A stretch of DNA of 24,497 bases from a virus, in IMG/VR virus record IMGVR_UViG_3300032293_000207, positions 1-24,497 of that record; one strand, written 5' to 3'. Position numbers and translations under genes: made by a program. Shown piece by piece: positions 4,565 to 24,497 of this stretch. How positions within the stretch are numbered: position 1 is the first letter of the stretch; every line of letters begins with the position of its first letter. A model generated the notes under the pieces. That model did no database searches. It was not told the DNA's origin and worked only from the letters and a program-made list of their open reading frames with translations.

Positions 4565-4762
4565 CTACTCGTCATCATCTGACGCAAAGCCAGCACCCCA
4601 ATCATCGTCGGTAATCCTTGCCTTTAGTTGCTCAAGTTTTAACGCTCTGTCGAGAATCTTGGTTTTGTCGGTCAGACTAGCCATCGGGTCGCTCATAGTC
4701 GATGTTAGTAATTGACTAATAGCATCCTCTAGCTGTGGATTTATCCCCTTCTGCTTCTTCAT
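4565..4762 (-). CDS. Conserved acidic-tailed small protein (65 aa)
   Basis: The sequence starts [19 protein letters not shown], has a helical middle (SDPMASLTDKTKILDRALKL) and an acidic C-terminus (DDDWGAGFASDDDE). I recognise the overall pattern from phage genomes of this kind but know of no assigned function. The ATG overlaps the stop of the 42-residue gene upstream (ATGA, 4759-4762). Helix plus acidic tail would suit a small partner or chaperone of a virion protein; this is inference only. Confidence 0.65.
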   Translation of the reverse strand: MKKQKGINPQLEDAISQLLTSTMSDPMASLTDKTKILDRALKLEQLKARITDDDWGAGFASDDDE

Positions 4763-4887
4763 CTCTTTGCCTTGCGTTTCTGCATTTGCTGCTGTGGACG
4801 CTGCATCTTACGCATCGGTTTGATCATGGTTGGTGGTGGCGTTACTTCACCTACACCTGCTTCTTGGGGTCTAGTTTGACGCATCAT
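4759..4887 (-). CDS. 42-residue Gln/Lys/Arg-rich small protein
   Basis: Two adjacent ATGs at 4887 and 4884 follow an AAAGG ribosome site, and the first overlaps the stop of the DUF6496-like gene as ATGA. The protein starts [20 protein letters not shown] and ends in a Met/Gln/Lys/Arg-rich tail ([11 protein letters not shown]). It has 11 basic against two acidic residues. The stop overlaps the ATG of the next gene as ATGA. Its placement, with 4-base overlaps on both sides, is the main evidence that it is translated. No family recognised. Confidence 0.6.
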
Positions 4888-5021
4888 TTTCTACCTTTCT
4901 TGGCTTTTCTAGCTACACTCAAGGCAATAGCCACCGCTTGCTTCTGCGGTCTGCCACGCCTCACCTCACGACTTATGTTCTTACTAATAGTCTTCTGACT
5001 AAAACCTTTCTTTAACGGCAT
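4884..5021 (-). CDS. DUF6496-like 45-residue protein
   Basis: The protein reads [20 protein letters not shown], then [25 protein letters not shown]. The pattern MPLKKGxSxKxIxxNI followed by [15 protein letters not shown] is the signature I associate with DUF6496, a family of tiny proteins found in phage and bacterial genomes with no known function. It has 15 Lys/Arg and one Glu. The ATG shares bases with the TAA of the large gene upstream (TAATG, 5019-5023) and its stop overlaps the next start (ATGA). Nucleic-acid binding is plausible from charge alone. Confidence 0.8.
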
Positions 5022-7069
5022 TATTGACTCCCTGCAATAGATTCTACTGCTCTGCGACCCAAAAACCCTACACCAGCAACACCAGCAAAATAACCGAGAA
5101 TTTTTCTGGCTTGAGTTCTTGCCTGAACTAAATCTTCTAGTTTGGCAACATCTCGCATCATTGTTCTGTAACCAGCGTCATCAATAATGCCGCGATCTAA
5201 CAAATCTTTAGCTGCTTTGGCAACTGAATTTTGGATGTCTGTTGCTGTTTTTGCGGCATTAACATCATCTTGCATCTTAGTTAATGACCTAACCGCTTCT
5301 GCCTGTTTTTCTCTGGTTTGAATGAATGTCTGAATCGGTGCTGCTTTCTCACCCGTTCTAGTTCTTCTCAAAGCCTCTGCTAGCGATTCGCCTGGACGTT
5401 GTGTTGGCGGTGCAGCCGTGCCGAGCGCCTCTTGCAGCCGACGCTCACTTTCTTTGCTCAGTTTTCTGGCGCGTTCAGCCTCCTTGCCGGTTTCTTTAGC
5501 AACCACACCAGCCGCCTTTTCAGACAATTTGGCATCATCAACAGCGCGTTGTGCGGCCTCTCTTGATGATTTAAGGCTCTTAAACTCGTCGTACAAACCT
5601 AATTGACGCAACGGACGTTCATTACTTTGCAACCAAGTTCGAAAAGCAGCTTCGGATGGAACAACCTCTTTACCAAACAAATCACGGGTAAAGTGCAGAC
5701 GCGCAGCCTCACGCAGGTTTGGACTCGACTCTAGCAATCGACTAAATACCGGATTCCCAAGTTTTGCCTTGTTGATGACCTCGCCAACTACTTGTGCTTC
5801 GGTCAACTTTTCAGCCGCACTAATGGGATCAATGTCCAGAACGCGCTTCAATCCACCCTGCCGTTCCATAATGTCCAACGGCCTAGACAAACTGCTAAAC
5901 CGACCCAATGCCTGACGGTAATCTTGTGGCATTTGGCGAATCAAGTTTCCGCGCAACGATTTCAATCCACGCAAGACTTCTTGATCTGCACCCGTCTGAG
6001 GAAAGAATTTATTGATAATGTCTTTGCTAAGATATTTGCGGAGTGAATCAGCCGAATACAAACTCAGGGCATCCACATCACCCGTTTTTGCCAAAGACTC
6101 AATCTCTGCCATCATTGCTTTGACTTGCGGATTTCGTGACTTTTTGCCAATTTCCTGCGCTTGGGTTATCAAACCTAACGTGCTAACAGTCGGCGTATCA
6201 CCCGAAGCCTGAATAATTCCTCCAAGACCAGACTCAGTTTTTCTCGCGTCAATTAAAGTTTTGTTAAGCGTTTTTGTGACGTTTCGTATTTCTTGCCCAA
6301 ACACTTCCACAGGAATACTAGGCTGTGCAAGCATCCGTTGCTCTAAGGCGCTGACTGCTTGCTGTGCCGCAAGTGTTTGTTGTTCAGCGCGTTCTGCAAG
6401 TTGATCTGCTCTAGCCGCACTCTGCTCTGCTTGAACTCGCCGCGCACCCGCAGCCTCTCGAACAGGCTGTCTAACTTGCGCCTGAAGTTGAGCAGCTTGT
6501 TGTTGTGCTGTTAATGGCGCTTTAGCTGCGCGTTCAGCAGCAACCACAGGTTGTCTTTCCATTTGGCTAACTACGCCCGCAGCACGTTCTCTTTGTCGTT
6601 CTGCCTCTGAAATTGGCGCTCCGTAGCGTTCTGCGGTTGCTTTTTTAACTGCCTCTGCTTCTTTTGTTACATCTCGACCAAGACTGCGCTTGATAAGACC
6701 AGCGCCATAACGACCAGCGCCTACGACACTAGTAGCACCAAGTGGCGCAAAACTTGTTAACAACTCAGCTAATGGGCGACGTTTAGGGCTGACCATGCCA
6801 GCCTTTTCCATTTGCTTACCTATGTATTCAGACCCTAAAAACGGTTCGTCTTTGTATCCAAATGGACGTAAGGCCATAGCACCAATGTCTGCTGGCGCAC
6901 CTAAAGTTCCAGCAACTAATGATCTGTTAATGACATCGGTTACTGGTTCAACGTACTTTTCCCCAAAAGACTTTTCTGGAACTAAGTCTTCATAACCACC
7001 ACCTTTGCTACCACCTTGACTGCGATCAGTTTTGGAGGTGGGAACCAAATCTTCGTAACCATCAGCCAT
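5021..7069 (-). CDS. Putative DNA-ejection/internal virion protein (682 aa, coiled-coil)
   Basis: A long, Ala/Gln/Arg/Glu-rich protein with no catalytic motif that I can see. The N-terminus carries the heptapeptide GYEDLVP twice (residues 4-10 and 25-31) separated by a Ser/Gly linker. A hydrophobic Gly/Ala region follows at about 50-125, then a long predicted coiled coil at ~140-247 ([20 protein letters not shown] and following), another helical charged region in the last third, and a C-terminal hydrophobic segment ([17 protein letters not shown], about 655-672). Size, helical content and position, last of four such genes before the lysis end, fit the internal proteins that podoviruses push into the host with their DNA. 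The ATG follows the preceding stop directly. Structural role likely; the ejection assignment is inference. Confidence 0.6.
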
Positions 7070-22797: not shown

Positions 22798-23277
22798 TTA
22801 CATAGGTTGAGGGGTTGCGCCTGGCATCTGCATACCAGGTATTGCTGGCGCTGCTGCCAAAGCCTTACCTTCCGGCGTTGCGCCACCCGCCTGTGGAAGT
22901 GTCTGTAGCATCTGAAGAATTTCAGACTGCTTCAATTCGTTTACAGATTCTTTCTTGCCGCCAACGACACCTGACAAGGTACGCAGCGCAGACAATACTT
23001 TCACGCCTTCAGCAGAACTGCTGCCCAAAGCCGGTAACGCCTGTTGAATTAGGTCAATAGCCAAACCAAGGCTAACCAGTGCGCCCTCTTTATTGCCCAT
23101 TTTTGGTTCTGGCGTAGACATTGGGGCAGCCATTGGCATTGTCTGATCTGTAGCAGAAGCCTCTGAGTCCAAAGGCGACGGTTGCTGCGCGTCACGCTCA
23201 GAACGCATCATCTTCATCAACTGATCCGGTGGAACGCTCATAGTAACCCCATAAATTTCGACAATAGCATCAGCCAT
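22798..23277 (-). CDS. Head-assembly-region protein, Met/Pro/Ala-rich (159 aa)
   Basis: The N-terminus from ATG 23277 is MADAIVEIYGVTMSVPPDQL; a TTG six codons upstream (23295) is possible, and neither has a clear Shine-Dalgarno. Residues ~35-60 are a flexible Ser/Pro/Met region, residues ~65-125 are helical (EGALVSLGLAIDLIQQALPA, KVLSALRTLSGVVGGKKESV, NELKQSEILQMLQTLPQAGG) and the tail is Ala/Pro/Met-rich. No domain recognised. Lying between portal and scaffold, it may be a minor head or portal-associated protein. An inverted repeat lies just upstream. Confidence 0.6.
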   Translation of the reverse strand: MADAIVEIYGVTMSVPPDQLMKMMRSERDAQQPSPLDSEASATDQTMPMAAPMSTPEPKMGNKEGALVSLGLAIDLIQQALPALGSSSAEGVKVLSALRTLSGVVGGKKESVNELKQSEILQMLQTLPQAGGATPEGKALAAAPAIPGMQMPGATPQPM

Positions 23278-23297
23278 GTCGATAGATTCTGTCAAGT

Positions 23298-23326
23298 AGG
23301 GGCGTATATTTACCTTCCCCGCCCCT
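23298..23326 (-). other. Hairpin in the leader of the 159-residue gene
   Basis: AGGGGCG (23298-23304) and CGCCCCT (23320-23326) form a perfect 7-bp stem with a 15-base loop, located 21 bases upstream of the ATG of the 159-residue gene and 21 bases after the end of the second tiny ORF. It has no following T-run. It may affect message stability or translation; no known element is recognised. Confidence 0.35.
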
Positions 23327-23346
23327 TGCGGGATTATCCCTAAGGA

Positions 23347-23388
23347 TTACTTACAAGCCTTACGGCCTTTGCGTGATTTGCGTGCCAT
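23347..23388 (-). CDS. Tiny basic peptide MARKSRKGRKACK (13 aa)
   Basis: ATG at 23388 has GGAG six bases upstream; the reading frame of 13 codons (MARKSRKGRKACK) ends at TAA 23347. Seven of 13 residues are Lys or Arg, one is Cys, and none is acidic. Upstream in-frame ATG at 23400 would add four residues (MEKT). It is the second of two similar ORFs between the 55-residue gene and the 159-residue gene. Too short for composition tests alone, but the ribosome site and the twin nearby support translation. Confidence 0.5.
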   Translation of the reverse strand: MARKSRKGRKACK

Positions 23389-23465
23389 GGTCTTCTCCAT
23401 TTGCAGCGGCCACCTAGTTCATGGGTCAAGCAGCCACACCCCTTTATCTTCTTACGAAGAAACTC

Positions 23466-23507
23466 TTAACGACGAGTTTTGCGACCGCGCTTCATTTTCT
23501 TGTACAT
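23466..23507 (-). CDS. Tiny basic peptide MYKKMKRGRKTRR (13 aa)
   Basis: ATG at 23507 follows an almost ideal AGGAG with a 6-base spacer. The 13-codon frame encodes MYKKMKRGRKTRR and ends with TAA at 23466. Eight of 13 residues are basic. It starts 16 bases after the stop of the 55-residue gene and is followed at 23389-23465 by 77 bases with no obvious ribosome-site-bearing gene. Peptides like this could bind DNA during packaging or be early host-directed factors, which is inference. Confidence 0.5.
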   Translation of the reverse strand: MYKKMKRGRKTRR

Positions 23508-23523
23508 AGCTAACTCCTGAAAG

Positions 23524-23691
23524 TCATCCCCTTACTGATCTACCGTAAGTCCGAACACTTGGGCTACGGTCAAAATTCTTAACGCCTTGCACCCGATATT
23601 GCAGGCTTGGGTTTCTAGGCGAGTCTTGCATAGGCTGTGTTGTACCAGCGCGGGGCTGGTCAGCTCTAGGTGCGATACTTGGTTCAGCCAT
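23524..23691 (-). CDS. 55-residue small protein downstream of the portal
   Basis: The ATG at 23691 shares bases with the portal TAA (TAATG), and the frame ends at TGA 23524. The protein starts MAEPSIAPRADQPRAGTTQP and ends VRTYGRSVRG. It is Arg/Pro/Ser-rich, has a central QYRVQGVKNFDRSP and no hydrophobic core, so it is probably disordered. The GGGGGA sequence before the ATG is a usable ribosome site. No family is recognised; direct coupling to the portal suggests a head-assembly accessory. Confidence 0.65.
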   Translation of the reverse strand: MAEPSIAPRADQPRAGTTQPMQDSPRNPSLQYRVQGVKNFDRSPSVRTYGRSVRG

Positions 23692-24497
23692 TATTCCCCC
23701 ACCATTTTCAAATCAGGTTTACTTTCCGATTTTGGCGGCTGCTGTGGAGGCTGCTGCGCTTGTTTTTCTTCCATGCGCTTTAGTTTCTCTTTAAGCAACT
23801 GCTTCATCGGCGGTTCAAGCAAATCTATCAACGATTCCTTGTCGATAGCGCCAGCCTTAAACATATTAAACGCTAATTGCCGCAAGTCTTCAGTAAATAT
23901 CGGACTATTCGAGTGCGCGTCCACCTTTACCACATAGTTATTGGTAAATTGATCAGCAATGAACGGAACATTCTCCGTATCCATCAATCTGGTGTTGTCG
24001 TAAGCCTGAATCAGCTTTAAGAACAAGGTGGATACTTTTTCGAGGCTGTCTTCAACAATAAGCGCACGTTTTTTCGCTCTGGAGGAGCCAAGTCGGGCGA
24101 GTTGGCTGGCGTGACCCTGGCTTCTAACGCCAGTTTCGCCTCTACCTGAGAGTACGCTTGTAATACCTGACGCTTCCGCGAACATCTGATCCACTTCACG
24201 GATTACCTCGAACAAGTCGCCAGGCATTTGCGGAGCCATCTTCTCGACCTTGGCGTTAGGCATATCGGTTGCTAGCAAGCCACCAGCCCGATTCAAGGCA
24301 AAGTTCTTCTCATCCAGAATGCCGGTAAAACCAATCAATGCAGTCGGTGGAGAAACTTGCTTAGACAGCAAGTCCAAAATCTCCGTCATTCGCTTGTTCC
24401 GCAAGGACTGCAAAAACACCAAACGCTGAACTTCGCTCTGACCCCAATAATAATCGTACATGGGGTTAGGGCAAATCTGAACGAACGGCAGTTCGCC
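23691..24497 (-). CDS. Portal protein, C-terminal part (5' end outside window)
   Basis: The frame is open from the window edge (GELPFVQICPNPMYDYYWGQ) and ends at 23691, so the first part of the gene lies beyond 24497. Features typical of podovirus-type portals: PFVQICPNPMYDYYWGQSEV leading into the long wing/stem helices, SLRNKRMTEILDLLSKQVSP, a GITSVLSGRGETGVRSQGHA segment, ALIVEDSLEKVSTLFLKLIQ, and a C-terminal crown-like region with a Gln/Pro-rich tail (EEKQAQQPPQQPPKSESKPD). The portal dodecamer forms the DNA gate at one capsid vertex and anchors the adaptor encoded at 19056-19901. It is the first gene of the visible late block; terminase is expected outside the window. Confidence 0.8.
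   Translation of the reverse strand, partial: GELPFVQICPNPMYDYYWGQSEVQRLVFLQSLRNKRMTEILDLLSKQVSPPTALIGFTGILDEKNFALNRAGGLLATDMPNAKVEKMAPQMPGDLFEVIREVDQMFAEASGITSVLSGRGETGVRSQGHASQLARLGSSRAKKRALIVEDSLEKVSTLFLKLIQAYDNTRLMDTENVPFIADQFTNNYVVKVDAHSNSPIFTEDLRQLAFNMFKAGAIDKESLIDLLEPPMKQLLKEKLKRMEEKQAQQPPQQPPKSESKPDLKMVGE

Follow-up and report, generated by a model that had tools for sequence, protein, structure and literature searches.

The J/VP8 proteins of microviruses (phiX174, G4, alpha3 and SpV4) are short polypeptides that are rich in arginine and lysine, linked to head assembly and devoid of an enzymatic domain. In this family of ssDNA phages, a C-terminal phenylalanine is buried in the capsid protein, and the SpV4 member has 38 residues (PMC11281519). 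Adenovirus Mu (protein X) is a very short, arginine-rich polycation, cut by a protease from a 79-residue precursor in a virus with a dsDNA genome of 26-48 kb; it has 19 residues and is present at 100-300 copies in the virion (PMC7998265). At the level of RNA, a pseudoknot in the leader of T4 gene 32 acts as a translational operator (PMC3014915, PMC535899), which a 2010 review regarded as possibly the sole viral case of translational autoregulation by such a structure (PMC3014915).

We analysed a 24,497-nucleotide stretch of viral DNA (IMG/VR record IMGVR_UViG_3300032293_000207; the window), in which a sequence-only reading had pointed to two short ORFs, here called mini-ORF1 and mini-ORF2, and had likened their peptides in charge to J-type proteins. 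The basic charge stands (net +8 and +7 in 13 residues), and the peptides further resemble J/VP8 proteins in their arginine- and lysine-rich composition, their apparent link to head assembly and their lack of an enzymatic domain. However, they are 10-15 residues long, and all homologues end in arginine or lysine rather than in an aromatic residue. Moreover, they are encoded by two or three tandem genes with a pseudoknot leader in a dsDNA tailed phage, which has an SU10-type portal and a tailed-phage major head protein (and, in relatives, a terminase), rather than in an ssDNA microvirus with a single-jelly-roll capsid. On the features compared here (C-terminus, length and virus type) they are thus not members of the J family, although they may work in a J-like way by neutralising charge. 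Adenovirus Mu is a similar polycation from a dsDNA virus of similar genome size, but the mini-ORF peptides, known here from their genes, would be made directly rather than from a precursor.

As in T4 and RB69 gene 32, an H-type pseudoknot (PK-A) lies 5′ of the ribosome site of mini-ORF2 in the phage mRNA, in front of a gene whose product is expected, by analogy, to bind nucleic acid; covariation and linkage to mini-ORF2 place PK-A in this leader, and regulation by it is our proposal. T4 gene 32 encodes a large ssDNA-binding protein, whereas mini-ORF2 has 10-15 codons. The T4 pseudoknot is found about 67 nt upstream, with an A+U-rich tract after it, whereas the roughly 20 nt of mixed sequence between PK-A and the AUG of mini-ORF2 contain no UUAA(A) tract. 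Short tag-like ORFs flanked by pseudoknots are also found in tmRNA, but the mini-ORFs have their own Shine-Dalgarno (SD) sequence and ATG, and their peptides are cationic rather than degradation tags. A tmRNA was rejected, as ARAGORN finds no tRNA or tmRNA gene and no tRNA-like domain.

Two very short basic genes in the late operon

The genes of the locus are as follows.

23691 to 24497, minus strand: C-terminal part of the SU10-type portal protein (PF23899, E 3.2e-9; phrog_1216 portal), the anchor for comparisons
23524 to 23691, minus strand: 55-residue ORF between portal and mini-ORF1, kept in relatives; its start overlaps the portal stop
23514 to 23518, minus strand: AGGAG ribosome site of mini-ORF1, 6 nt 5′ of the ATG
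23507 to 23466, minus strand: mini-ORF1, MYKKMKRGRKTRR, 13 residues, 42 bases including TAA, net charge +8
23395 to 23398, minus strand: GGAG ribosome site of mini-ORF2, 6 nt 5′ of the ATG
23388 to 23347, minus strand: mini-ORF2, MARKSRKGRKACK, a tandem xRK repeat, 42 bases including TAA, net charge +7
22798 to 23241, minus strand: next gene (MSVPPDQ..., 147 residues), with its conserved start at ATG 23241

The two ORFs are where the sequence-only reading had placed them, with the ideal ribosome sites that it described, and neither peptide in the window contains an acidic residue. The same reading had put them in a loosely packed stretch between portal and scaffold genes. The gap that contains them (23523 to 23242) is indeed the longest in the late operon, but what the pair directly follows is the 55-residue ORF, which that reading had left out, so that the portal gene is not the immediate neighbour of the pair. 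The 55-residue ORF has a basic C-terminus (RSPSVRTYGRSVRG) and no match in Pfam or PHROG, and the adaptor encoded in the window is also of SU10 type (PF24175, E 1e-10). On the far side, the TTG at which the ORF finder begins a 165-residue ORF belongs to a TTGACA box (23295), and the conserved start is the ATG listed above. The minus-strand order is thus portal C-terminus, 55-residue ORF, mini-ORF1, a 5-bp hairpin, PK-A, mini-ORF2, a hairpin, a second pseudoknot (PK-B), TTGACA and the next gene.

A filter for 10-16 codons, an SD core placed 5-8 nt 5′ of the ATG and a net charge of no less than +7 was passed by exactly these two ORFs in the window, and by none in 200 dinucleotide shuffles of it. 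In the complete 35.6-kb genome of a relative (MW202753), even a looser filter returned only the two homologues. Relatives were gathered by portal-anchored IMG/VR searches, one codon-pattern search, two GenBank genomes and one Legionella-MAG contig, which yielded at least 335 portal-bearing loci, at least 233 of them distinct over 560 nt; the group is larger than this. Among the matches listed from IMG/VR and GenBank, all 233 distinct portal-downstream regions have at least one mini-ORF and none lacks a copy; 199 have two and nine have three, while the number with a single copy is overstated, as a few of these have a second copy that starts with GTG or whose SD is weaker. Conservation across so many distinct regions excludes chance, and the mini-ORFs are, judged from these comparisons, almost certainly genuine genes of 10-15 codons.

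Genes of this kind are left out by standard gene finders, and they were missed in both related GenBank genomes, MW202753 and MW202825 from Manatee Spring, whose records annotate antisense CDSs across the mini-ORF gap instead (two at 4740-5038 of MW202753; one in MW202825, L082 3954-4214). Read antisense, the pair is spanned by an open frame in only 20-63 of 209 regions, depending on the frame, so these CDSs look spurious and are rejected as annotation artefacts. The phages that carry the mini-ORFs form a large, uncultured freshwater group. Comparable mini-ORFs are absent from the distant phages Mx8, BUCT555, ppBjS10J-1, Mwe-JY13 and a TM7 phage, which have a related capsid protein; the genes are therefore not required by this head type generally, and the cassette is, as far as collections show, particular to this lineage. 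Among contigs from bacterial genomes, the only match is one of 3.6 kb that had been assigned to a Legionella MAG (L200, CAISKC010000485.1), a weak hint of the host because short contigs are often misbinned.

Selection acts on the encoded peptides. On loci picked by portal alone, pN/pS in frame is 0.30 (MY type) and 0.19 (MRK type) for mini-ORF1, and 0.27 (13 residues) and 0.40 (12 residues) for mini-ORF2. In all classes the value exceeds 1.2 in both other frames (1.3-7.3 for mini-ORF1, 1.6-4.5 for mini-ORF2). Identical residues are written with varied codons: arginine by CGT, CGC, CGG, AGA or AGG, lysine by AAA or AAG, and threonine by all four. A four-base SD core (GGAG, AGGA or GAGG) precedes 485 of 506 mini-ORFs, mostly at 6-8 nt, compared with 9.8% of random positions. 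Frameshifts or lost starts in relatives, which the sequence-only reading had named as evidence against the genes, did not occur, and the conservation of start, stop and ribosome site that it called for is what we found, with change that is mostly synonymous. Its length of 13 residues holds for both peptides in the window, but is merely the commonest among relatives, where lengths range from 10 to 15 and variants differ by whole codons with the frame kept.

Relatives of mini-ORF1 follow the consensus MYKxxKRGRKTRR or MRKxxKKxRKSRR, with fixed residues (Y2 in one branch, T or S at 11) and a C-terminus of RGRKTRR or KxRKSRR. Mini-ORF1 is thus more specific than mini-ORF2, which is essentially a tandem xRK repeat in which x is A, G or S. 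Only one of 450 mini-ORF peptides has an acidic residue, a count confined to this set because the filter behind the other sets removed most acidic residues. The conserved property of the peptides, on these alignments, is charge, above all in mini-ORF2.

Codon use resembles that of the capsid and scaffold genes. CGT and CGC supply 83% of the arginine codons in the mini-ORFs against 42% over nine other genes of the window; the share is 83% in the window's capsid (MCP) gene and 69% in the scaffold-like gene, both with few arginine codons (n = 6 and n = 13), which limits the argument. In MW202753, all eight mini-ORF arginine codons are CGT or CGC; the share is 49% over the other genes counted (Fisher p 0.003) and reaches 89% for scaffold and 83% for capsid. 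This bias suggests, on small numbers, that the mini-ORF product is abundant and late.

Two pseudoknots and a promoter

Each mini-ORF in the window has a hairpin and then an H-type pseudoknot 3′ of it, RNA structures that the sequence-only reading had overlooked.

23447 to 23460, minus strand: hairpin UCUUC-GUAA-GAAGA after mini-ORF1; most relatives have a small hairpin here, of varying sequence
23408 to 23441, minus strand: PK-A, H-type, supported by covariation of both stems and by co-occurrence with mini-ORF2
23441-23438 with 23426-23423, minus strand: PK-A stem S1, GGGU with ACCC
23435-23428 with 23415-23408, minus strand: PK-A stem S2, GGCUGCUU with AGGUGGCC
23336 to 23347, minus strand: hairpin AUCC-UUA-GGGAU (one bulge) after mini-ORF2, overlapping the last base of the stop codon
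23298 to 23333, minus strand: PK-B, H-type with an A-rich loop 3; 31 diverged relatives share its topology and position
23333-23330 with 23319-23316, minus strand: PK-B stem S1, UCCC with GGGA
23326-23320 with 23304-23298, minus strand: PK-B stem S2, AGGGGCG with CGCCCCU
23290 to 23295, minus strand: TTGACA, the -35 box of what is probably a sigma-70-type promoter serving the scaffold-side genes, conserved in relatives

The elements of PK-A run in the order S1-L1-S2-S1′-L3-S2′, for example AGGG-UA-UGGCUGACU-UCCCU-UUCU-AAGUUGGCC. Covariation was assessed in 44 sequences of less than 88% similarity. A MAFFT alignment misplaced the 3′ strand of S2, as loop 3 varies in length, and the stems were therefore counted on blocks whose halves had been anchored separately, with pairing not used. 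In these diverged sequences, 88% of S2 cells and 97% of S1 cells are paired, with 33 and 19 double-change cells, respectively. Such levels were reached in none of 2000 shuffles (a count that ignores relatedness and is no formal probability), and with slid partners pairing drops to 27-51% for S2 and 68-89% for S1. One S2 pair occurs as CG, AT, TA and GC, and whole stems are swapped between relatives (GGUUUCUC/GAGAAACC, UCUCGCUC/GAGUGGGA); some lines retain a small internal mismatch. Nested folding of the region only modestly beats shuffles (z -1.8); a structure that is in large part knotted would be expected to behave in this way.

PK-A is tied to mini-ORF2. Where mini-ORF1 has been lost (L222, L251/L254, L264, L274/L275, L288, L289, L327, L334, L335 and L347), the hairpin and PK-A are kept before mini-ORF2; where mini-ORF2 has been lost (L096, L299, L329/L333/L339/L343), PK-A is lost too. 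By-eye checking of the automatic co-occurrence table left no exception, the apparent ones being due to short search ranges, mini-ORF2 copies ending in SCK and stray motif matches. On this evidence PK-A is the leader of mini-ORF2, gained and lost jointly with it, and its S2 ends about 20 nt 5′ of the AUG, at the edge of the ribosome footprint. PK-A occurs once per genome, with no second copy as a trans target in the window or in MW202753. A known riboswitch or other Rfam RNA was rejected, since no family matched at gathering level in the window or up to E 10 in 23200-23700; this is a weak test, as covariance models do not score pseudoknots.

The stems of PK-B also vary among relatives (GACAU/AUGUC, CAUC/GAUG, CCUC/GAGG, GGGGGAC/GUCCCCC). 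In 31 relatives the summed stem energy averages -26.0 kcal/mol against -13.5 kcal/mol in shuffles, and 84% beat the shuffles' 5th percentile. PK-B is retained without mini-ORF2 in L299, L329 and L333, and therefore goes with the junction rather than with mini-ORF2. Right after it, TTGACA is found in 201 of 234 regions and TTGACT in 27. TAnnnT stands exactly 16 nt past the -35 box in 78 of 231 regions (random, 3.5%), and the -10 box is poor in the window itself. PK-B would probably protect or end the upstream transcript just before the scaffold-side promoter. An intrinsic terminator was rejected, there being no T tract 3′ of the stems.

Possible roles of the peptides

For a polycationic peptide that is under selection, probably abundant and encoded among head genes, binding of nucleic acid in assembly or packaging is the simplest reading. 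The full proposal, to which we give about an even chance, is that the mini-ORFs encode late, abundant polycations that bind nucleic acid in head assembly or packaging, with mini-ORF2 under a pseudoknot leader. One to three micro-genes near the scaffold and capsid genes would supply, late and in quantity, unstructured peptides of 10-15 residues, which would bind nucleic acid chiefly through charge and whose most likely use is in building the head or packaging the genome, for example by neutralising the DNA being packaged; more broadly, they may help to neutralise or organise the DNA or RNA of the phage. Parts of this proposal meet objections: neutralising a 35-kb genome would take very many copies, and the specific residues of mini-ORF1 exceed what bare charge needs.

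Translation of mini-ORF2 would be set by its own leader, the hairpin and PK-A. Because a knot in front of a gene whose product would bind nucleic acid is reminiscent of T4 gene 32, we propose that PK-A tunes mini-ORF2 translation, possibly autogenously; the product or another phage factor would likely bind PK-A and adjust initiation. It is unlikely that the mini-ORF2 peptide itself recognises PK-A, repressing its own synthesis once free peptide is in excess over DNA; if it did, the self-regulated gene would be exceptionally small and would belong to a large lineage of phages unrelated to T4. Among phages, PK-A may be the second instance, after T4 gene 32, of a pseudoknot in the leader of a gene whose product binds nucleic acid. 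Furthermore, if the packaging proposal is correct, protamine-like peptides of about 13 residues can be encoded directly by tailed phages with dsDNA genomes. Tryptic proteomics is expected to destroy these peptides, because nearly every residue is a cleavage site. Across hundreds of genomes the cassette has been gained and lost naturally, which makes the peptide and the leader-knot claims testable.

The alternative that survives best, with a small but real prospect, is that the peptides are arginine-rich RNA-binding regulators, which would bind the hairpins or pseudoknots beside them and, between the portal and scaffold units, regulate transcription, translation or the stability of the RNA. Arginine-rich RNA-binding peptides are similar in length and composition, the mini-ORFs adjoin structured RNAs with PK-A tied to mini-ORF2, and mini-ORF1 holds specific residues. 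However, the low-complexity repeat of mini-ORF2, with its changing length, argues for charge over specific recognition, the capsid-like codon bias points to more product than a regulator needs, and mini-ORF1 persists without PK-A (L096, L299 and L333).

Conserved RNA structure is dense in the region and short ORFs can couple translation, so the element might instead be a structured mRNA in which only the act of translation matters, by keeping ribosomes on the message or exposing the next ribosome site, with the peptides themselves functionless. We consider this quite unlikely: residues are kept while codons vary, mini-ORF2 retains its charge despite changes in sequence and length, copies are duplicated, deleted and reordered, and mini-ORF1 and mini-ORF2 are 66-243 nt apart, with every phase represented.

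It is also quite unlikely that the peptides act on the host, a role that the sequence-only reading had allowed for, be it on the nucleoid, the ribosome, RNA-degrading enzymes or the membrane at lysis. Strongly cationic peptides are able to disturb nucleic acids or membranes, and many small phage proteins target the host (PMC11323111), but these genes lie among head genes rather than in an early host-takeover region, their products lack hydrophobic residues for membrane action, and they occur in every genome found, apparently unlike typical host-directed accessory genes. Finally, ORFs as short as these often arise by chance, and a pseudoknot can promote frameshifting, but there is practically no prospect that the mini-ORFs are chance ORFs or an artefact, or that they are the ends of a single longer protein, joined at the pseudoknot by readthrough or a frameshift, given the shuffles and the 233 regions, the near-equal phases of the mini-ORF1 to mini-ORF2 distance (74, 73 and 62 regions for the three values modulo 3) and a mini-ORF1 sense frame that is never open across to mini-ORF2.

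Copy variants and other small genes

Mini-ORF copies have been gained, dropped, duplicated and reordered among relatives. Length changes in mini-ORF2 (L005 compared with L010, and generally) come in 9-nt xRK units, in frame wherever seen, as expected of slippage in a coding repeat. In L096, PK-A, mini-ORF2 and PK-B are gone in one piece, a natural deletion that leaves TTGACA directly after mini-ORF1 and could serve as a control. An extra basic type ending in SCK (MARKTKKGRKSCK and similar) stands 5′ of mini-ORF1 as a third copy in L206, L224, L305 and L308, with no pseudoknot directly after it in these triplet loci, and replaces mini-ORF1 in L246.

The stretch from the portal to mini-ORF1/2 contains further inserted small ORFs, most of them basic, in L187, L112, L125, L200 and L211; that of L187 has 50 residues and sits between mini-ORF1 and the hairpin, while L200 and L211 have MANKEKKEEKKPQKYTGPRKYRGEGKKRGRIT after the portal. 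The portal-side junction thus seems to be a collecting site for small basic genes. Elsewhere in MW202753, the annotation of positions 26877-27662 names a dpG-synthase-like protein, a hint that phages of the group modify their DNA with 7-deazaguanine.
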